The notes under the pieces are model-generated. The model saw only the letters and a program-made list of their open reading frames with translations. It ran no database searches and was not told the DNA's origin. Shown here piece after piece: positions 1,581-42,783 of a stretch of 64,000 bases of DNA. The first letter of the stretch is position 1. Every line of letters starts with the position of its first letter. The stretch is from Mesaphorura yosii (taxonomy: Eukaryota; Arthropoda; Collembola; Poduromorpha; Tullbergiidae): contig WIXG01000027.1 in assembly GCA_009869945.1 (NCBI GenBank), positions 248,001 to 312,000 of the forward strand, in the 5' to 3' direction. A program made the position numbers and the translations under genes.

Positions 1581-4500
1581 ATGCCACAGAAAGGAAAAGG
1601 CAAAGGCAAAGGAAAGTGTCGAAGTGAAAGCAAGCAAACTGAGCAGGCAATAACGGGGGCAGAGGTCAAGAAGGAGGAGCTCAAGATGGAGGCTGTGGAG
1701 CTGAGTGAGGAGCAGGTCGAGGAAGAGATTCTGACAACGGGAGTGGACGATTTCGACAATAACGGAAATGCGATCCCAGAAGGTGAGCATCATGTTGTGA
1801 TTGTGAGTGGGGACGAGATTGCGACGGCGCTCGATCACGAGCAACTGATCTACGCGACGCATCATCTGGCACACCACCCTCGTCGTCACCAGCATCTGGT
1901 TGAGCAGGACGGGAACTGTGTACTTGAGGACTGTGATGGGGATTGCGAGGGCATCGACCAGGATATTATCGACGATGACCAGGAAACGGTGTCAGGGTCA
2001 CCTCCCTCGACAATGCTGGTAAGCACACGAGAGCTGGACGACGAGGACGACGGACTCGGTCAGAGCGGGAGCCGTCACGTAATGGTGACTGAGGACGGTA
2101 CGGTGGTAGAGGAAGGGCTTATCGTGCTGGAAGATGTTGAAGAGGAAGGCTGTTGCGATGATGAGCAATTGCATCATGAGCTTGATTCCCCTTCGTTGAG
2201 TGCGACGACGCAAGGCGGAGTAGGTGGCGATGGAAGCAGTGGCAACGACTTGGGCACTGCGGCCGAAGTCGTCGTGATTTCTACTGACGATGATCAGTAC
2301 GATTCCTCGCATGATCACCAGCACCACGCAGATCAGCTCCACCAGCAACATCTTCAGCATGGTCAGCAACTCACGACCAGCCAGCATGTGAGCAGCGGAA
2401 TTATAACGACTACTTCGGGAACTACCACAAGCCTTCTACACGCTCATGCGGGTGAATTGTTTTGCTCAGCCACGAGCACGAGCGGTGTCAGTGCAATTCC
2501 AACCGGCGGAGCAACAGCAACGATCCTCACCTCTCGTCCTTCGCTGAGTCGCGTCGTTCTGGTCACTTCACATGGGGCAGGCACTGCTCTGAGTGCAACC
2601 CCTCATTTGTCTACCATCAACAATAACCACACACTCACACTCCACAGAATACAACTCAAGCAGCAGCAACCATTGTTGCAGATCCAACACCACCGAGCAG
2701 AGGCAGACCCAGAAGACGAGGAACTCCAGACTGCGGCCGAAGACTTGTCTCTGTCCTCGTGTCCAGAGTCGCCGCCGGCGCTCACTCATCATCAGCAACC
2801 GCAATATCATCAAACAATAAGATTTCACTCAACAGCGCCCGCGGGCTCGTCCGACGAGCACCACACTCAAGTCCACCACCACGCACCGCAGCACCAGCAG
2901 GTCCTTCTCCTGCGGTCTCACTCCCACCATCACCTGCTCCTGACTGAGCCCGCCAAGACACACGCCAGCAGCCTTGTGAGTGACGGTGAGGGTGGAACTC
3001 TGCTGACAGTGATCGTGCCACCGACTTCGTCCACCGCGGGAGCGTCTCATGTGCTTTTGAGTGAGCACCACCACCATCAGGAGCCGGGCGTCGACGACCA
3101 GGCAGAAGAAGCACACAGTCCGTCGCCGCTCCTGGACTCGGGTGGTGAGACATCTCTCCTGTCACCTTCTGCCGGTGAACTGTCTGTAAGTGTAGCAAGT
3201 ATGATTGATGCCTCGGAGTTCCATCGCGGAGTTCTTCAATCTGAACATGGCGGTGGCAGTGGCGGATATCATGAAGGTCTGAATGGCAGACTTTCTCCGG
3301 GCTACAGTCCAGGTACTTCAAACTCACAATATGCAACGCTGACGCCGCTCCAGCCGCTTCCGCCAATCTCGACAATGTCTGACAAATTTGCCTACGGACA
3401 CGGCGGTGGTGTCGTCGGCGGGTCCTTCACCGTCATGCATAACAATGGACTCGTGGGCAATCTCGGACTCAATTCGCCGTGTTACTCATCCTATGAGAAA
3501 GTCTCCTCCATGAGCATGTCCCCGCCACACCATTACTCCTCTCCCACCAACGGAATGGGCAACCTCGGGCACCACCAACCCTCTCCTTCATCATCCTCCA
3601 TGTCGCCTCCTCCCTCCTCTTCCCATCACCAGCACCACCACTACGTGCAGAATGGACTTGGATCGCCTCTCTCGAAACCCCTGTCCCCGAACAACAATGG
3701 GTACGAGTACTCGAGCAGTGGCAACGGAGGACCACGAGATTTACGATCCTCACTCCACCATCCTCCGCATAGCCCTTCGCTGAGCCCGCCAATTCATCAG
3801 CATCACCACCACCATCACGGGCTATTTGGCGTCAACACCACGACCGGAGTATCTCTGCTGACAACATCCTCACTCCCGACAATTGTGAACGGTCTCACGA
3901 GCATGAGCCCGCACTCGTCGTCGTCGCCTCTGCACAATTCACCTCCGCTAACCGGAGCGACTGCTGTCGTGGTGGCTCACGCCTCGTCTCACAACTGTGG
4001 AGGCAACGACAACTCCTCGTCGTCGTCCTCACCACAGACTTCCAGTCCAATGTGCATGACAACAATGCCGCTTTCTGGGTCACCTTTGGTAATCACGACC
4101 AGCTTGCCGATTGGTGCCAGTCTTTCGAACCAGCAGCAGCAACAGGCTTTGATCACGGTTGCGCACTCTCAGCAGCAGCAACTCGTCCACTCGCACTCTC
4201 ATCCTCACATAATTAGCAGCCACAGTCATAATCAGTCATCTGCCTCGGTGACGACCACCGCCATCGGACTCACCCACAGCGCCAACTCAGTCTCGCTGAA
4301 GACCGCCGGAAGTAATAATAGCAACAATAATAACGGTAGTGTCGTAGGACCATCGAATCTTACAGCTACCCCTGCTGGATCAGGAAACAGCGGAGCCTCC
4401 TCCTCGGGCGGGTCGGGTGGTGGCGAGCTCGAGGAGATCAACACCAAGGAACTGGCGGCGCGCATCAGCGCAGAACTCAAGCGATACAGCATTCCACAAG

Positions 4501-4668
4501 CCATCTTTGCGCAAAGGGTCCTCTGCAGATCGCAAGGAACACTCTCCGATCTTCTCAGGAATCCAAAGCCATGGTCGAAACTCAAGTCGGGCCGCGAAAC
4601 GTTCCGCAGAATGTGGAAATGGTTGCAGGAACCTGAATTTCAAAGAATGTCAGCACTTCGACTTGCAG
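1581..4668 (+). CDS. onecut: onecut coding exon 1 (N-terminal region and most of the Cut domain)
   Basis: One open frame of 1029 codons plus one base. It ends at CTT GCA G followed by the donor GTATTA at 4669. Joining at this point restores the family-invariant LRLAACKRK across the junction, which fixes the splice site. Reading on past 4668 gives residues without ONECUT similarity and a stop at 4746-4748, so an unspliced transcript would lack the homeodomain. Codons for His, Gln, Ser and Gly form many short runs (for example six consecutive His near 3802-3819). Confidence 0.96.
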
Positions 4669-7600
4669 GTATTAATTTTTATTGCAATGCGCCTTCTTCT
4701 TTAACGAAGCAGAAACCAAACCAAAATACCAGAAAGGTCACGTTTTAATGCGTACAAGTAGAGACCAGGTCATGTCATCGCAGCCACTCTCTTTCTCTTT
4801 TCGAGCACTTTCACTATTCACCGTGTTGTCTCAGCTTTCCCATCCATTGTTTAGAAATTGCGACCGCCAGTTTGTCCAAATTGTTGAAATGAACTCAATG
4901 CATAAAAAATTTGATTTTGGCATCCTGCGCTCGGAACTCTTTGGCTGCATACATTCTCTGAATAATTCCGATCCTAAGGCAAGATACGACGCAGACGCTA
5001 AACTGGACTCCATGATTTTAGAACATAATTCCAGGCACGCTTAAACCCGCACTCTGCGTCTGATCCACACGCGCACATAAAGCAGTACGGCGGAATTAGA
5101 CGGAAGTGTTTGCTCCGTCCGCCTTCATTTATCATAGTCAGAGCCGACTGAATGATACGAGACAATTCTTGCACATGCCTTTTAAATTGAGTGCACACAT
5201 GCCCGTGTGAGGTAATTCATTTCGGCCTTAAACTCTTTTCATTATCTTGCTGCTGGCTGACGGCCAGGTGTCCGGAAATCAGCTTTACATTATTCAACGA
5301 AAGAATCCTGCTCGGTTGCAACGCATTGTTATTGTGCTTCGCAAACAACGAATGCACAATGCAGTGGAGTGCGAGTACGTGGGCAGCAGGCAGCAGGTTG
5401 TGCGTTTATCTCTTCAACAATGAAGCTGAACTTGAATTCCCGTCAAGGGTCAAATCTGAGTTTAAGCGACTGCAACCTGAAAAATGTGAAATTTGATGTT
5501 TCGGAGATTAAAATATTTGAAATTTTGAATATTTGGACTACGCTGCTGTCAGTGTCTGTCACATCTTATGTGGAATAGACAGGAACACGGACATGGCCGA
5601 GTAAAGCGCATTGAGCCATGAAAGTCATTTCTGCTGATCATCGGATATGAAACGGCGAAAGAAAGAAAGGGAGAGTTTGGTTCCCGGTACCAGCTGGTGC
5701 TGAGTCGAACTGAAATAATAATGATTATGATAACTTTGTAACATACACTTGCAAGATACGTGGCACAGGCTGGAATGAGTAACAGCAACTCATCTAAGGA
5801 GTGGAGGAAGCGAAGAAAGAGTTGTTGTTGGCTGGGAAAATAATGCCAGCGTACTGTAAACTCTCACCGAGCCCGTCCCAGCACCGAACCATTCTCTACG
5901 CCGCGTCGTGCATTACGCGGAGAGGAAACGCAATACAAGCGCCGACTGACCCTTTCACTTTCCCTCAATTTAAATGAGAAGGAAAACACGGACCGTCGCC
6001 AGTGCAGAGTAACTGTTTAGTCATAAAGTTGATGTCGACGGTGACCCTCGACAGAAATAAAAATAATGTTGAATTTATTCTCGGCAAATAAAACGGGCAC
6101 TTAAAATAAAATCCACCCTCGATTTAGAATGAAAAGTGCGCGTTCATTGCTTTGGCTACCCTACATCGGAAACCCAACAACAATGCAGCTATTGTGACAA
6201 GAGCGAAGCTCACCGAACCGCAAAAGTATCACAACAATTATGACAAACCTTTCCATCCATTCTAATCCTTGCACATGTACGCGCAAGCGAAGTTCAAGAT
6301 TTGGAACTCGTGCGACGAAGGCGAACGATGAGGCGTTCGTGATCAATTTCATTTGCACTCTTCCACATGGTGTATGACTGACTGACTCCATTTCTCTGAT
6401 TTGAATATGTTTTGAATAATGACGTGAACGGAACGAGAATATTCCAAACTCACATTTTCATTAAAGTCATCACATTGTATTTGGCACACATAAATAAGTG
6501 TTGCATTGGAGCGGGTTAAGTAATCGCAGGCCATGCATTTTGGATGAAGGTGTGTGCAATTTCAGGTGCACATTGTGCGCTGTGATGATGGTTTAATGGT
6601 TCCTCGGTAGTGGTGACGGCCCTGACTAGACTATAACGTGCTCTCCGTGTCTGAATATTCATTGGCACCATTTCTTCATTTTCAGGCGACACGGGTTTGG
6701 ATTTGCCTCACTGAGTCTCGCCTTGTGTTTCTGTCATTTGAGCAAGCGAAACTGGAATTTGTCTCTCGTCTCAAATGCCAATTAAAGCTTGAGACTTCTT
6801 CGGTGTTTAGGTTTCATAATTTTCGGCATTCTGAGTAATCTCATTCTATGGTCATCCTATAATAATATTTTGTCCGTAAACTCGAGTCCAACACTCGCAG
6901 GACAGGCGCGGTTCCTAAGAAACTTTAGTAGCGAACGGAATTCGAGCAGCAGAATGCCAAGACATCTTTTGAAGAGGTTCTTGAATATCCTTCATGCCAT
7001 TTGATTTTGACCTATGCGAAGGCGCTGCCAAGACGAAGGAAGTCGGAAAAAGTTAATGGACTTGTTTCTCTCCGGAATATTTTCGTGCTCAGAAATGATA
7101 GAGCCGTCCTTCATCCCGCAGCTTTCACGCTGCTGTCCGCTGCTCTAGTGAGGCTGCTTTTGCATGGCCATTGTGATTCAGCCAGTCAACCTTTGTCGGA
7201 AGAAAAGGTCAATTTAATTCGTTGTCGGACAATGCGATTATGCATAAGCACACGCTATGTGGTATACATTACATTAACAAAACGGATTCGGTTTCAAGCA
7301 ATAGCCACCACGATTCATGCAACTTGATGATATTGCGAGTTTTAATACGGTCAGAGTTCACTTGTCCACGCAAGGGTCGGAGAAACATATTAATTGGCCC
7401 TTAGTTCCCTCAAAGTCGAACCCTACTGCTCTTGTTTAAGGTTGTATTCCATGCTTCTGAAATTTAAGAGAATCCAAAACTTGCACGAAGGCAAAAACGG
7501 TTGACCGTTCTCTATGATGAACTCATTACTGCTCGATACAGGGGTAGGTTTCATTTTTGTGGTCATCCAAAGCAAGTTTTGATCAAGACCCGTGGCGCTT

Positions 7601-16600: not shown

Positions 16601-19600
16601 GCATTACAGACTCGATCCGAAATTCATTATAAAATGTTTCAACACTTCACGGCAACGCCACAGCACAGTGTGGCGGGCCTTCAAATTACACATTCAAAGT
16701 GGGAGAAACTACGTGCATGTTATTACAAGACCGAAGCGATAGTTATTGTTATTAGAGCATGCAATCGTCTTCATCGCCGAGCCATCGCAGTGCGCGTACG
16801 TGTACCTGGCAGCATTAAGCACTGACTACAGCGAGCAGTCCACGGTGCATGATATGACGTACATTAGGATTGCTAAGCTGAATCAAACTATATACTAGAG
16901 ACCCTGGTTTTATTATTTTCTCCAGAACTTGGCTTGGCTATAGCCACTCAATCTCTTTTCATCCATCCTAGTCAATTCAAAGGCTTCTGAATCTCAATTT
17001 TTAAAGTCTCTCGTCTTCGCCTTGCTTACCTGCTCAGCCTTCGATGAATTCGCGGGCCTGTGAGATACAGAGACAGAAGAGTAAGTTATTTAGTAATGGC
17101 GAAATGTGGGCTTAAAAGCCTCGTCATTTTCTAATGAAAATCAAAGCAGGCGTGCACTTGCCAGGCTTATAATCATTGCATGGCATTTGCTTATTTCGGT
17201 CGTACTTCATTAAATGTCAAGTGTGCAAAGTTTGAGTTGTGATGCTGAATGCCCACAAGCAAGGTATGTGAAAATCATTGCAGAAATAGTTTGCTAGTCA
17301 TATTCTGGAATCTGGAAAAGTTGTACGTGGACATTTGACTGTGAACGCTCTAATTATAAGATACTCATTATTTAGTTTAGAGTTAAATTGCACAAAATTT
17401 ATGTACACGAGGCTCAATAAACGTCAACGCTCGCCACTACCACTAAAATTATGGCCGCTCCATTATGTTGTTTACTCTGAATCTTCACCCATCTCGCGTG
17501 TGCTGTCGACGAAATTCGCAATACAATCCTGGTTGACCTTTGCTCCTTTTCCTGTCCTGCTTCTCACTACACCGCGTCCTTCTTTGGCTGATATTTTAAT
17601 TTATGCATGTTGATCGAGTTTATTTCGTGTGACCTAGAAGATGGAATGCAGACAGTGCTGACGAACGCTTTAATTTAATTGAGATGATGTGAATGGTGTA
17701 ATGTCATGAAGATGTTTGGTTTCGACCGATTTGAGTTGTTTGGTATGCGTAGCGGGTTCATTTATAGTTACTTAATTTTGTTTTCTCTTTTGCCCTCTCC
17801 CGCCCGTTTTAGGTAAGCCGACCATGCATTCCTCCTCTTGTATGCAAGTCAACGTAGGATTCAATTGTGGAACTGACGACGCACCGATTCCTGGCATCGG
17901 TAAGATTTAGAATTCATAATATCGTAACTATTCTTAACTTATTCTTCCCAAGCGGAGCAAATCCATTGAAATACTCGTGGGGTTGTAATCGTCGACTATG
18001 AGTCCCAAGGAAAATTCCCAGCGGACTAAATTAGAGTTCCCATTCTATCCCCATTATTATTGCTGTGGGCACGTCTTAATAAGCAGCCTTAACTGAAGGG
18101 TTTCATCATGACAAAGACTGTCTTCACGAGAATTCGGCGTTGCGAATTTAAACTGATTGGTTCGCATTTGTTTTTCGCATTTTGTTCCCGGAGATGATTG
18201 CGTAATCGTGGAATCGTTTGGAAGCGTTTGCTTTGCTGGAATCAGGCCAAGGAGAGGCTGTTTTCTTATTCTCGTAAACCTTCATAATTCCTCACAGACT
18301 TCGTAAAGTTCGGTCCATTAAAGTGTCAAACGAAATTCCTCATTTTTAATGGTTGATGATATGACAGTCCTAAAAGGAATCACAACGAAACTAAAAGCCG
18401 ACAAAAGCGAGAGCGAAAGCGTGGAGTAAACAGTAACGAACGAACACAATAAAGTCGGGTCCCCTCAAAAATAAAAATCGTGCATGTCATTTAAATACTG
18501 ACTATAATTTTCAGTTGAAATGGTTTCCCGTTCTTTCTTATCACCTTTCATACATCATTGCATTACCTACGACGTCATTCATTACATTACTACATTATTA
18601 CGTCTGCATTTATGCATAGTCTGGGGAGAACTCCATCATAATCGAAAACACACAATTTTACGTGCATTTTTACTGCTTTTCTGTTTTTTGATCTGTAGAG
18701 TGAGAAATTCACGTTTATATGCGCGCCACCATTTCATTCGTCGTATTTTATTTCGCATTTTGCTCTGGAGTTTCCGTTTCTAACCGTAAAGATATCTTTT
18801 ATTGCTTGTACATTTTTGTTTAAACTGGAAATCGCTCAATAAGTTCACGACCGGCGGGAGACAAATCAGTTCCAGTGAATAATTTCCCGTGTTTATGCAA
18901 AACAACAATCAATATTAAGTCGGATAAAATAGGTTGAATAATATGGCGGGGACTTAAAATAGAATGACGGATTCGGCAGAAAACAGAGCGACAATGATGC
19001 GAAGAATATTTCGATACGTTAACCGTGCTTATTACGAAGGCATTTAAAGAGTGAACAATTGAATAATAACAGTTTCATTATTAGTAATTACAACGCCCTC
19101 CATTTAGAAGATTTGCGCCTAAAAACCGAAATCTGCATTTACCGGGCATGTGTACATGGAGCCGACGATGACTAGCTTGATCGTAGAGTTCAGAGTATAT
19201 TTTCATATTTTGCTCTTTCTCCGCGGCAGTCTGCATACGCTGTGGGCATTCTGGGGACAGTGCTCTCCCTTGCCTTGTCACGCTGTAGCTGTTTAAAGGG
19301 ATTTTGATGAACATTTCCCCATGACGAGCTTTCTCGCTATGGCTGAGCGCATAGAGAGGACGGTGTCATTAATCATCGCATTCAAAAGGCATAGAGTTTT
19401 GTAGTTGACAGCAATATTGCTGTTTTAAAAGCCTTCATCATCACACAAAAAGTAGGTATGTGGAGCTACATACTACGCTACATGCATGCTACAGCAGTTG
19501 TTGTCTCGCAACACTCGCATATGATACGAAGAAAAGAAAGCAAGGCGAAAAGCTTGTACACGTCTTCGTCATCGCCATCTAAGTCGTGCGTGCGTAGATG

Positions 19601-31600: not shown

Positions 31601-33228
31601 TGAGTTGATGGCAAAAAATGGACACACTTGTTGTGTAACGATCAAATGATCATCGTGCGATGGACTTAAAAAGACAAAAGTCAGAATGGAATCCCGCACC
31701 ACCATCGTGCGATAGAGAGCCGTTCTAAGGCACGGCAGGCGTGCGATGAGGGAAGAATTTATGGTGTTGGCCATTCAAGCAGGGCGCTGTGAAAGTGAAA
31801 GATGCTATATTATAGAAAATAAGAAATAAATAGACGGCAGGCACATTGGGTCTCGGTTTTTGGAGAAAATTCCTTTTCTCGCACTTCCTTCTCCGCATTT
31901 CTTATTTTTGTCGAGATTCTCTTGCACATGTGCTGAGAGTTTAGTATACGAGCATGAACACGAATCCGCTGTGCGTCTGGTACGTACGCCTACGCCATGT
32001 TCCGTCCTGTATTTATAACAATATGTTCTGAACTATCATAGCTGGGCGATTATTTATTTGTTAAGTGGATAAGAAACGCTTCACGCGTTCGTACACAGGA
32101 TAAATTCACCAGTTCACAACTTACGAGCTGGAAAAGTTTTCCTCGTCCACTCTTTATAGGCTCACGTTTTCTGCAATGTTTCTCCTTCTTTGACTTCGGA
32201 CTTTCTTTCGGATTGTCTTATTAATTTTCGTATTAAAGTCTTCTTGCCAACAAAATTAATGATCGGGCAGTAGAAATGGCCATGGCTTGCGAAGAATGAG
32301 TTTGCAGTCATCTGTTACCGAGCGGTGCAGTATTGGACGCATTTGAATGTATTTGAAAAGACCCACCCTGTTGAGAAAATCCGCACCTGGATGTTTTTGT
32401 ATCAGGAAGAGACATGAACGCAAAACATTAGCTAAACCCCTTCCATTCGTCCTGCTGGTCTTGGGGATTGATTTAAATGATACGCTTGGAAGAGTGCAGT
32501 TTTATTTTGTTTTCATTTTCGCAAATGATTCATGAACCAGTGCTAATTAACGTTGGAGAAAGTGGGAAGTTAAGATAAATATGTAGTAATACAATTAAAT
32601 TTAACTGCAATGCTGACTAGTCAATTCTTTTGTTTTTGCAGCATGCAAGCGGAAGGACGAGCCTCAGCAACAGACTACCCCGACACAACCGCAACCGCCG
32701 GCCGAACACCCGCCTACACCCAAGAAGCCGCGTTTGGTTTTTACAGATCTGCAACGCCGTACGTTGCAAGCTATTTTTAAGGTGAGATATTAGCAACATT
32801 CGAGCTTTTTAACCGTCAAGACATAGATCATGAATTAATATGGCATATACATTAATGTTCAGGAAACGAAGCGACCATCAAAAGAGATGCAAGTGACAAT
32901 CGCACGTCAATTGGGTCTCGAACCAACAACTGTAGGCAACTTTTTCATGAACGCGAGACGCCGCTCCATGGACAAGTGGAAGGAGGACAACGATCCGGGC
33001 AAACAGCCGTCTGCCTCCTCGTCCCAGCCCGGGTCAACTGGAAGTAATGGATCTAACGTGAGCTCAACCTCATCGTCAACTCAGCAGACTCTGCAGTCTC
33101 ATCTGGCGCAGGGTCAGACTGTGCACGTCGTCACTCTGCACCACTCCGGACTCCCGAGTCACCAGCACGACGACGATGACGACATTGATGATGACGATGA
33201 CCTACACTCGTCCGTAGACGAGTTGTGA
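1581..33228 (+). CDS. onecut: ONECUT family transcription factor (HNF-6 type), three exons
   Basis: Sequence-specific DNA-binding activator of the CUT-homeobox class, acting in the nucleus. Coding exons are 1581-4668, 32642-32781 and 32863-33228, giving 1197 residues. That is far longer than vertebrate ONECUT1 (about 465) and nearer the large fly protein. The N-terminal two thirds is low-complexity (His, Ser, Gln, acidic runs). A conserved ONECUT block, ATLTPLQPLPPISTMSDKF, starts at residue 585. A single Cut domain spans about 951-1036 (EEINTKE, RYSIPQAIFAQRVLCRSQGT, LSDLLRNPKPWSKLKSGRET). A divergent homeodomain spans about 1056-1115, with Phe at position 48 and Met at position 50 (NFFMNARRR), diagnostic for ONECUT. 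The tail is strongly acidic. The ATG at 1581 is the first after an in-frame stop but has a weak context; the ATG at 1686 has a better one and may be used instead. In known animals the family acts in neuronal and endodermal differentiation. Confidence 0.96.
4669..17812 (+). other. onecut intron 1, first half (about 13.1 kb)
   Basis: AT-rich non-coding DNA between the exon 1 donor and the putative recursive splice site at 17812/17813. I see no tRNA, rRNA or recognisable nested protein gene on either strand. Many short open frames occur, none with family similarity. The only stretches singled out are an AT-hook-like small frame at 8021-8116 and a membrane-helix-like frame on the minus strand at 13274-13483, both reported as weak candidates. 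Confidence 0.8.
8021..8116 (+). other. Exon-like small ORF with an AT-hook motif (weak candidate)
   Basis: A GC-richer patch follows an acceptor-like AATTTTGCAG (8011-8020). From the ATG at 8024 the frame encodes 30 residues ending in LRGRPRKAKRKR and TAA. RGRPRK matches the core of the AT-hook, a minor-groove DNA-binding motif, and the basic end resembles a nuclear localisation signal. Entered in the phase left by onecut exon 1, the segment hits a stop after five residues, so it is not a productive onecut exon. It could be the last exon of a nested gene, a microprotein, or chance. Confidence 0.2.
17813..17899 (+). CDS. onecut: Putative alternative cassette / recursive-splicing exon of onecut (87 nt, 29 codons)
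   Basis: A long pyrimidine tract (17780-17810) ends in TTTTAG at 17807-17812. The segment then begins GTAAGCC, itself donor-like, and ends ...GGCATCG before the donor GTAAGA at 17900. Entered in the phase left by onecut exon 1 (phase 1), it has no stop, encodes 29 residues starting GKPTMHSSSC and ending DDAPIPGI, and leaves in phase 1. It can therefore be included or skipped without disturbing the downstream frame. Inclusion would lengthen the linker between the Cut domain and homeodomain, where vertebrate HNF-6beta carries a 26-residue insert (established knowledge). That this segment is spliced is inference; there is no transcript evidence here. Confidence 0.55.
17900..32641 (+). other. onecut intron 1, second half (about 14.7 kb)
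   Basis: AT-rich non-coding DNA ending in the acceptor TTTTGTTTTTGCAG at 32628-32641. I recognise no nested gene, structural RNA or known mobile element on either strand. A second AG|GTAAGC junction lies at 21774/21775, but its pyrimidine tract is poor. Confidence 0.8.
32642..32781 (+). CDS. onecut: onecut coding exon 2 (linker and start of the homeodomain)
   Basis: 140 nt with acceptor ...TTTTTGCAG and donor AAG|GTGAGA at 32782. It encodes ACKRKDEP, a Pro/Gln-rich linker, and the N-terminal third of the homeodomain (KKPRLVFTDLQRRTLQAIFK). The linker is longer and more Pro/Gln-rich than in vertebrate ONECUT proteins. The exon ends in phase 0, inside helix 1 to loop of the homeodomain. Confidence 0.96.
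32782..32862 (+). other. onecut intron 2 (81 nt)
   Basis: A compact GT-AG intron (GTGAGA ... TAATGTTCAG) splitting the homeodomain between Lys1076 and Glu1077. It contrasts with the ~28 kb intron just upstream and shows the small-intron class of this genome. Confidence 0.93.
32863..33228 (+). CDS. onecut: onecut coding exon 3 (rest of the homeodomain and acidic tail)
   Basis: Begins ETKRPSKEMQ, the exact continuation of the ONECUT homeodomain, and includes the recognition helix with NFFMNARRR. After the homeodomain comes a Ser/Thr/Gln-rich region, then a His and Asp-rich acidic end (two runs of five Asp, then LHSSVDEL) and TGA at 33226-33228. The acidic tail may act in activation, but this is inference. 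Confidence 0.96.
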   Translation, partial: ETKRPSKEMQVTIARQLGLEPTTVGNFFMNARRRSMDKWKEDNDPGKQPSASSSQPGSTGSNGSNVSSTSSSTQQTLQSHLAQGQTVHVVTLHHSGLPSHQHDDDDDIDDDDDLHSSVDEL

Positions 33229-36981: not shown

Positions 36982-38313
36982 ATGGGAAACTGTCTGAAAG
37001 GACAAAACGCTGATGATGTTTCACTTCTTCGTGAAGGTGGCGGAACTCGTGAATCTTCGTCCTCAGATCAGATTCACGGAGGCGACGTTTATCAGGTACG
37101 AGCCGAGCCTTTATCAATGTCATTGTTAGAGTCATCCGATTAGGAGACAGCCATAGAATCCATTGAACTGCGCGCAGCCTATGCTAAGAAGGAGACGAGG
37201 GCTTTGTGTTATTACGTGAATACTACAGATCATGGGATCGGTAATGGCTGCGAGAGGAATTGCATATTTTATGAAAGGACTGATTTAATTAGCATCTTAT
37301 TATGCGCTCAACTATCGATGCCAGTCTGCTCATATATGTTGATTATTTCCTGCGAATGCTAATCATTTGCTAATTTTACGGGCTTAGGAGTTAATGTCTA
37401 ACGAACGTCTGATGCCTTTTGCAACAGGTTTCCGTTTATCAAAGGTGTAATGTGCTAAGGTATAGGTACTGGTTAGTTATGCTCGTCTAGTCAGGCTTAG
37501 TTGGCAATTGTCATTACTGCACTACATATCTATGACTGAAAACTTTTGAATTTTACAGGAGCCGAATGTTCCAGTTTATTACCCTTCGCCAAATGTTAGA
37601 CGTCCTGTTAATCAATTGACCGAAGAGGAGCAAGTTAAGATTGCAAAGAGAATTGGACTTATTCAGAATCTTCCAAGTGGTGTCTACGACGCCACTGCAA
37701 AATCTCGAGAGTAAGTCATTGCCAAAGCCAAAATGTGATTAAATACAAGGGAAATGGGGTTCTCCTTTTCATCAATGTGTCCTTTCTACTTTCTAGGTGT
37801 GTTATTTGCATGATCGACTTTATTCAAGGTGATAAAATCCGGTATATGCCATGCATGCATGTTTACCATGTGCAGTGCATTGACGACTGGCTTATGCGAA
37901 GCTTCACATGTCCGAGTTGTATGGAGCCTGTTGACCGTGCACTTCTAAACACTTATCAAACCGTTCCTCCACCAAATCCAACTCCACTCCTGATGATGGG
38001 CCCGCCTTCGCATGTATCGCACTCGACGTTTCTTCCTAATTTCTCCAGTCAAACTTCAATCATCATGCCGCCACCAAACCAAAATATCTTTCTGGCTACA
38101 ACAATTCCGGCTCCGACATCCACCACTACGATGATTCCTGGGAATTCAAATTCTTCGATTATTCTGACTCCTTCGCTGTCGGCTCCAATGACTAGTCCAA
38201 ACACAATCATGATGGCTCCGACTGGTATTCTATCTCAGCCTCCACTGACTCCGACGGTGACACCGATGCCTCAGTCAACAAATTCGACTCCACAATTGCC
38301 ACATCATCATTGA
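36982..38313 (+). CDS. rnf11: RNF11-type RING-H2 E3 ubiquitin ligase with a long C-terminal tail
   Basis: Exons 36982-37095, 37559-37710 and 37797-38313 give 260 residues. The start MGNCLK is the RNF11 lipid-anchor signal (Gly2 myristoylation and Cys4 palmitoylation in the vertebrate protein), pointing to endosomal membranes. The conserved core QLTEEEQVKIAKRIGLIQNL is followed by GVYD and a full RING-H2: Cys90, Cys93, Cys108, His110, His113, Cys116, Cys127, Cys130. IDDWLMRSFTCPSCMEPVD is nearly identical to RNF11. Two features differ from vertebrate RNF11 (154 aa, ending about where residue 144 lies here): the PPPPY motif before YQE is absent, and about 116 extra residues rich in Pro, Ser, Thr, Met and Asn follow. 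An in-frame TAA at 36964 supports the start. All splice sites are GT-AG. Confidence 0.95.
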
Positions 38314-41535: not shown

Positions 41536-42783
41536 ATGGATTGGGCCAAGGGAGGTTTGGCCGCTGTTTCAGCGGTATGCTTCACAAATCCACTGGAAGT
41601 CATTAAAATCCGAATGCAACTTCAAGGCGAGCTTTTGGCACGGGGCAATTACGCTGTCCATTACAGGTGAGCTGCCTGATTTGCTAATTAAATCTTAAAT
41701 GTCGGAGGGCGACAAGCCATGACGTGACATGCCCTTCTTGCACACAGAAATGTATTTCACGCCGCGTACACCATTGCGAAGCAAGAGGGAGCATTTGCCT
41801 TGCAGAAAGGCTTGGGACCTGCCGTTTGTTTCCAGTTCGTCATGAATGGGACGAGGCTTGGAACGTATCGCTGGGCTGACCGGCAAGGATTTACGCGGAA
41901 CCAGTCGGGTAGCGTCAGTTTAGTTCGAAGTGCGTTTGTGGGCTCCTTGTGTGGATGCCTTGGGTCCAGCTTAGCGTCTCCGCTGTACTTGGTCAAAACC
42001 CAGCTCCAGTCCCGAGCGAACTCGGCAACAATAGCCGTTGGTCACCAACATGCTCATACAAACATGGTCAAAGCCCTGGCTGCCACGTATAATCAGTACG
42101 GAGTGCTGGGACTCTTTCGTGGACTCTCCAGCACTTTTCCTAGGACGATTATTGGTTCAGCCGTGCAATTGTCAACCTTTGAGAAATGTGTTGGTGAGTC
42201 CCCCATCCTTGCACTACAATGGAAGCACGGGGCAGTGAATTCCCTTTTGTCTACAGAGTTCATCAGATCTCAGCAAATATTTTCTCACGGCAGTTGGATG
42301 AATCCTCTCGTTGCCAGCTTGATTTCTGGATTTTTCGTGTCGTTCGCAATGGCACCGGTCGATATAATCAGTACAAGATTTTACAACCAAGGAGTCGACG
42401 CAAAGGGCAAAGGTTTGTGCTTACTGTAATTGCAGTACATTGTTTTGATTTTTTTGCCCTTCCCTTTTCCTATTCCTCATGCCGAACATTCCATTCCCAT
42501 TGCTTTTGTTCCAAAATAGCATAAATGAAATTCAAATCGAACCTGACATTAATTGCTAGAAGTTCGGATCTCTACTTTTGTGTGCTTCGCAGGTTTGGTG
42601 TACAAGTCAATTGTGGACTGTGGGGCAAAGATTTACCAGAAAGAAGGTGTGTTGGGTTTCTATAAAGGCTGGAGCGCCAACTACTTTCGCATTGGCCCAC
42701 ACACTCTCCTCTGTCTTATGTTTTGGGATCGACTCAAGAATTACGACTTCAAGTCTCTGGTCGGACTGGAGCGTTCTCCGTAG
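41536..42783 (+). CDS. Mitochondrial carrier, SLC25A34/SLC25A35 type
   Basis: Exons 41536-41666, 41748-42193, 42257-42412 and 42593-42783 give 307 residues, the usual carrier length. The protein has the three-repeat, six-helix pattern of inner-membrane solute carriers. Signature motifs are [16 protein letters not shown] (repeat 1), [12 protein letters not shown] (repeat 2, Tyr in place of the acidic residue as in vertebrate SLC25A34/35) and [13 protein letters not shown] (repeat 3). Other family matches are [22 protein letters not shown] and [18 protein letters not shown]. The substrate is not well defined for this subfamily; a metabolite or anion is likely by family. An in-frame TAA at 41509 supports the start. 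The second intron is only 63 nt and could be read through in frame. Confidence 0.95.
42194..42256 (+). other. 63-nt stop-free intron in the carrier gene
   Basis: Begins GTGAGTC and ends TTGTCTACAG. Removal gives FEKCVEFIRSQ, which aligns with SLC25A35, so splicing is the expected form. It is a multiple of three and has no in-frame stop, so retention would insert 21 residues without a frameshift. Confidence 0.85.

Follow-up and report, generated by a model that had tools for sequence, protein, structure and literature searches.

What does a splice acceptor fused to a splice donor do near the middle of a 28-kb intron: shorten that intron in steps, choose between two proteins, or nothing at all? 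The question is raised by a onecut gene of the collembolan Mesaphorura yosii, which lies within a window of 64,000 nucleotides (nt) of contig WIXG01000027.1 (positions 248,001 to 312,000) in a 93-Mb genome assembly of 1,127 contigs. We propose that the 87 nt following the fused junction are an optional coding exon of onecut, which would be kept or spliced away again by recursion and donor competition, and from the sequence we give this reading a probability of roughly 0.55. That the same 87 nt are a real optional coding exon, with or without recursion, we consider quite probable on the same grounds. Coordinates given below without a contig are those of the window, all on its plus strand, and a slash within a sequence marks a splice junction.

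A profile match and an alignment identify the host gene as one of the ONECUT type, with one CUT domain and its homeodomain. Exon 1 ends at position 4668 in phase 1 (...CTT GCA G/) and carries the CUT domain, whose coding part (4431–4667; PF02376, 120.7 bits) is the best among four CUT matches genome-wide; a CUT-domain scan of viral contigs returned 10 pattern stretches, none of them a relative. The donor that opens the 28-kb intron, CAG/GTATTA (GTATTA at 4669–4674), is weak, scoring 0.7 in a splice matrix built from 17 inferred introns of this genome (those retained, with scores of at least 6, from 41 candidate intron pairs examined) and a generic seed. The intron runs for 27,973 nt up to an exon at 32642–32781, which follows an acceptor scoring 9.0, is entered in phase 1 (/CA TGC AAG...) and encodes the linker along with the first part of the homeodomain; the last coding exon (32863–33228) supplies the remaining homeodomain and the C terminus up to a TGA. 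When exon 1 is joined directly to the homeodomain exon, the product reads ...RLAACKRKD..., in which LA/ACKRK aligns without a gap to HNF-6 (2d5v) and ONECUT2 (8t0f), so that skipping of the 87-nt exon would yield the standard protein. Downstream of onecut, also on the plus strand, a RING finger (PF13639) is encoded in one open frame (37735–38313) and mitochondrial carrier repeats (PF00153) in another (41800–42429).

An earlier note on this DNA had placed a candidate recursive splice site in the intron, and the letters and distances that it gave are correct. A pyrimidine-rich tract, free of A over 35 nt and containing four Gs, leads into the acceptor TTTTAG (together 17776–17812), and GTAAGCC begins immediately at 17813, so that the acceptor is fused to a donor (GTAAGC, 17813–17818) which, joined to exon 1, would read CAG/GTAAGC and score 7.5. 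After an intervening 87 nt (17813–17899) comes a second donor, TCG/GTAAGA (GTAAGA at 17900–17905; score 3.9), the only one to score at least 3.5 in the stretch from 20 to 300 nt beyond the fused junction. The intron is thereby split close to its centre into about 13.1 and 14.7 kb (13,144 nt on the upstream side and, counted from the end of the 87 nt at 17899, 14,742 nt on the downstream side). The A at 17775, 38 nt upstream of the exon, lies in TTAAT, which fits the motif YTNAY, and is a candidate branch point.

The note had also held that the pyrimidine tract stands out among the AG/GTAAG junctions of the intron, and this was borne out by scanning 1,585 intron AGs: the longest A-free tract (35 nt, with a runner-up of 32 nt) ends at 17812, and the 17812/17813 junction is among only three sense AG/GTRAG junctions in the intron. 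A 30-nt tract that is at least 80% pyrimidine and has no AG inside, thresholds that were picked after seeing the site, precedes one of these three sense junctions, that at 17812, and none of the three antisense ones. The remaining window contributes no such junction on either strand (0/3), nor do the other genome loci (0/63; 520,594 bases, both strands counted), and 400 dinucleotide shuffles of the intron produced one altogether. Across 84 AG/GTRAG sites in other loci, none matches the candidate's tract at 30 nt (0/84) or at 37 nt (0/84); at 20 nt, three do (3/84), by construction, as the set includes loci L105–L112, which had been retrieved with the ratchet pattern or with a permuted version. 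The site is thus exceptional by the length of its tract, not by its matrix score, because the acceptor, which has TAG instead of CAG and a tract broken by four Gs, scores −0.5, where that of the homeodomain exon has 9.0, and because higher fused scores are found elsewhere. Its fused acceptor-plus-donor score of 7.0 ranks second of 78 sense AG/GT sites in the intron, and the top scores reach 9.9 on the antisense strand and 10.3 in the remaining window.

The 87 nt between the two donors match the reading frame of the host gene. Their length is a multiple of three, and both entry and exit are in phase 1, which is what the two flanking onecut exons demand; the proposed exon (17813–17899, phase 1-1) opens with a split glycine and continues as KPTMHSSSCMQVNVGFNCGTDDAPIPGI. 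The other two frames contain stops, leaving open only the frame that onecut requires. The signals, their positions, the phase and the open frame are direct observations, and the predicted insert of 29 residues would fall exactly between the CUT domain and the homeodomain. A poison exon is ruled out, as the required frame has no stop.

By itself, a phased open frame is found in about 6% of candidate acceptor–donor pairs: among pairs that are roughly as strong as this one or stronger and lie 30–300 nt apart, 3/53 in sense (the candidate included) and 2/31 in antisense are both phased and open. With the tract condition described above, two sense pairs and no antisense pair remain, and 17813–17899 is the only phased one. 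Acceptors scoring at least 3 yielded no phased open pair in the intron, either in sense (0/11) or in antisense (0/8), so that the frame match depends on a weak acceptor. Codon usage, judged against a reference of 51 of 52 loci (7,154 codons), lends the coding reading no support: the exon has a log-odds of −2.2, a value that 27% of 14,945 stop-free intron windows reach and below which 9 of 30 windows of onecut exon 1 score, and it therefore falls within both ranges. The 29-residue insert has no Pfam match at E ≤ 0.01. A search of the genome with 17700–18000, which skipped simple repeats, gave a single match, the query itself, and hence no sign of a repeat; a repeat origin of this segment was rejected for want of a second copy.

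According to the mechanism that we propose, exon 1 with its CUT domain would splice onto 17813 and in doing so would exchange its poor donor (0.7) for a strong one (7.5). The spliced product would bear two donors, the regenerated CAG/GTAAGC at the joint and TCG/GTAAGA 87 nt further on; the matrix ranks the regenerated donor (7.5) above the exon donor (3.9) and the latter above that of exon 1 (0.7). Choice of the second donor would retain the exon and add 29 residues to the linker between CUT domain and homeodomain, giving an HNF6-beta-like product, and choice of the first would re-splice the exon out together with the remaining intron, giving the standard, HNF6-alpha-like linker. With two donors competing once exon 1 has been joined, the 87 nt would be a recursive-splice exon of the expressed kind, and the ratchet would serve as a switch of the Ubx m1/m2 type. 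We infer the splicing of the exon and its removal by recursion. Features of recursive splicing that are present here are a fused AG/GT with a pyrimidine tract, albeit weak by the acceptor matrix, a downstream donor that can define the exon and an intron of 27,973 nt. Because the fused acceptor–donor and the donor downstream of it are real and unusual, the recursive-splice site advanced in the earlier note is plausible; it was framed there mainly as a ratchet point that splits the intron, whereas a frame-preserving optional coding exon, with a fitting phase and frame and an HNF6-beta-like place and size, explains more.

The alternative that survives best keeps the exon and dispenses with recursion. 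An ordinary coding exon, optional or constitutive, would start with GTAAG fortuitously, its skipping would be a direct 4668^32642 splice, and the exon junction complex would hide the regenerated donor. The features of the exon given above speak for such an account as well, and so does published work: PMC8605326 puts the expressed exons of recursive type that mammals may have at more than 6,400, and according to PMC8184009 regenerated splice sites in flies are suppressed by the exon junction complex. The fused donor is, however, the strongest of the three (7.5 against 3.9 and 0.7) and should for that reason be usable, and we regard an exon spliced without recursion as rather unlikely.

We also favour an optional coding exon over a zero-nucleotide ratchet point, at which the 87 nt would merely define the site and always be removed, and whose role would be the stepwise removal of the 28-kb intron, a view close to that of the earlier note. 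A long intron in a developmental gene and a near-central site would suit that role, as would a ratchet donor stronger than the exon donor (7.5 versus 3.9), and predicted recursive sites in flies are described as lying mostly in introns longer than 10 kb (PMC6110457). A sequence that is always discarded would nevertheless have here an open frame, a length that keeps the frame and a symmetric phase, whereas in flies, by the account in PMC8605326, cryptic ratchet exons do not as a rule keep the frame, and HNF6 is described as having an optional exon at the same place (PMC11800625). Because phase and frame match onecut, we rank a pure ratchet below the coding exon and consider it improbable.

The genome-wide survey of ratchet motifs also counts against a pure ratchet. 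Pattern counts set against permuted cores and backwards readings reveal no general excess of such motifs in this genome: Y12NYAG/GTAAG has 4 matches against 4 with a permuted core (9 and 1 when read backwards), and Y8NYAG/GTAAG has 20 against 41 and 4 with two permuted cores (48, and 8 and 7 for the permuted cores, when read backwards). These patterns require unbroken pyrimidine runs, which the onecut candidate itself does not have. The lack of a general excess tells against both readings, though less against an optional exon than against a role in shortening the intron. Two of the four strong Y12 sites have a donor scoring at least 3.5 within 300 nt (+86 at L105 and +163 at L108). The ratchet-like site at L105 (C53:255136-255156, minus strand) reads TTTCTTTTCTTTGCAG/GTAAGTAT, is followed 86 nt downstream by a donor scoring 4.5 and is nearer to the consensus than the onecut site; the one at L108 (C738:5691-5711, minus strand) reads TTTTCTCTCTTTCTAG/GTAAGTAC and is followed 163 nt downstream by a donor scoring 6.5.

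That splice-like motifs merely came together by chance in so long an intron, with nothing spliced at all, is to our mind equally improbable: the weak acceptor (−0.5), a fused score that is not an outlier, codon usage no better than that of 27% of stop-free intron windows and the post hoc choice of the site among many possible motifs all speak for it, but among 1,585 AGs the one with the longest A-free tract before it is also one of only three AG/GTRAG junctions, and a correctly phased open exon comes on top of tract and fused donor.

Should the optional exon chosen through recursion be real, onecut would provide a case outside flies in which a ratchet selects protein isoforms, beyond shortening an intron, and would tie the ratchet to a choice between two vertebrate isoforms whose DNA binding is said to differ. 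Our search of the open-access literature found no publication that brings 'onecut' together with 'recursive splicing'. For flies, fewer than 50 expressed recursive exons are reported, and recursion of expressed exons is described as having been validated for Ubx only before the reporter tests of that same study (PMC8605326).

Among the recursive exons described in flies, m1 and m2 of Drosophila Ubx resemble the proposed onecut exon in anatomy. They are 51 nt each, lie in an intron of about 73 kb, keep the frame and are retained or not according to the choice of donor, as described in PMC8605326; like them, the onecut candidate is short, keeps the frame, has a donor at its 5′ end, sits in a homeobox gene whose intron is very long and offers a choice between two donors. 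Where expressed fly recursive exons were placed in reporters, the ratchet donor is reported to have been the stronger in 7/7, with which the order of the onecut donors (7.5 > 3.9) agrees; Ubx m1 and msi, two of these seven, were mostly kept, and exon content is said to have mattered too (PMC8605326). The two cases differ in exon length (51 versus 87 nt) and in the gene and protein concerned, and recursion has been demonstrated for Ubx whereas here it is predicted from sequence signals. This genome also has six Hox-like homeodomains on one contig (C22:115800-395085, plus strand), a largely intact Hox cluster. These homeodomains look like those of abd-A, Ubx, Antp, ftz, Scr and Dfd, and the Ubx- and abd-A-like ones, which are accompanied by their downstream motifs, mark the host as an arthropod. 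A search for the mitochondrial COX1 gene found nothing.

Zero-nucleotide ratchet points of flies, such as those of kuz and Bx, share with the onecut site a pyrimidine tract ahead of AG/GTAAG, a nearby downstream donor and a long intron, as far as they are described in PMC8605326; unlike their cryptic exons, which are described as mostly out of frame and excluded, the onecut exon has a frame and phase that suit the host gene. Vertebrate recursive-splice exons are likewise exon-defined sites with a second donor in a long intron. Their inclusion, in contrast, is suggested in PMC5126111 to bring premature stops, of which the onecut exon has none in the required frame.

In its place within the gene, the onecut exon recalls an exon of vertebrate HNF6. 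The two HNF6 isoforms reportedly differ in DNA binding, to go by the title of the 1998 paper of Lannoy et al. According to a review (PMC11800625), rat HNF6 is made up of three exons separated by more than 10 kb, the first encoding the N terminus and the cut domain, the second the 26 residues of HNF6-beta and the third the homeodomain. The HNF6-beta exon and the onecut candidate belong to one gene family, both fall between the cut domain and the homeodomain, and both preserve the frame; likened by place and size as described there, the inserts would have 26 and 29 residues, and the spacing of more than 10 kb in HNF6 compares with 13.1 and 14.7 kb here. The linker of ONECUT2 on DNA is described as too disordered for modelling, and an intact covalent linker is reported to be necessary for high affinity (PMC11490551), from which we infer, by analogy, that the 29-residue insert could alter DNA binding by changing how the CUT domain and the homeodomain share their site. 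The plan shared with rat HNF6 makes the antiquity of linker exons testable across arthropod onecut introns. That the arthropod and the vertebrate HNF6-beta linker exons are one and the same, ancestral to bilaterian onecut, with inclusion in arthropods switched by recursion, is a speculative extension that we think unlikely; onecut would then join Ubx as a second homeobox gene whose ratchet determines how long the peptide ahead of the homeodomain is. As judged from its sequence, the site would be HNF6-beta-like by place and Ubx-m-like by anatomy, and both kinds are already known.
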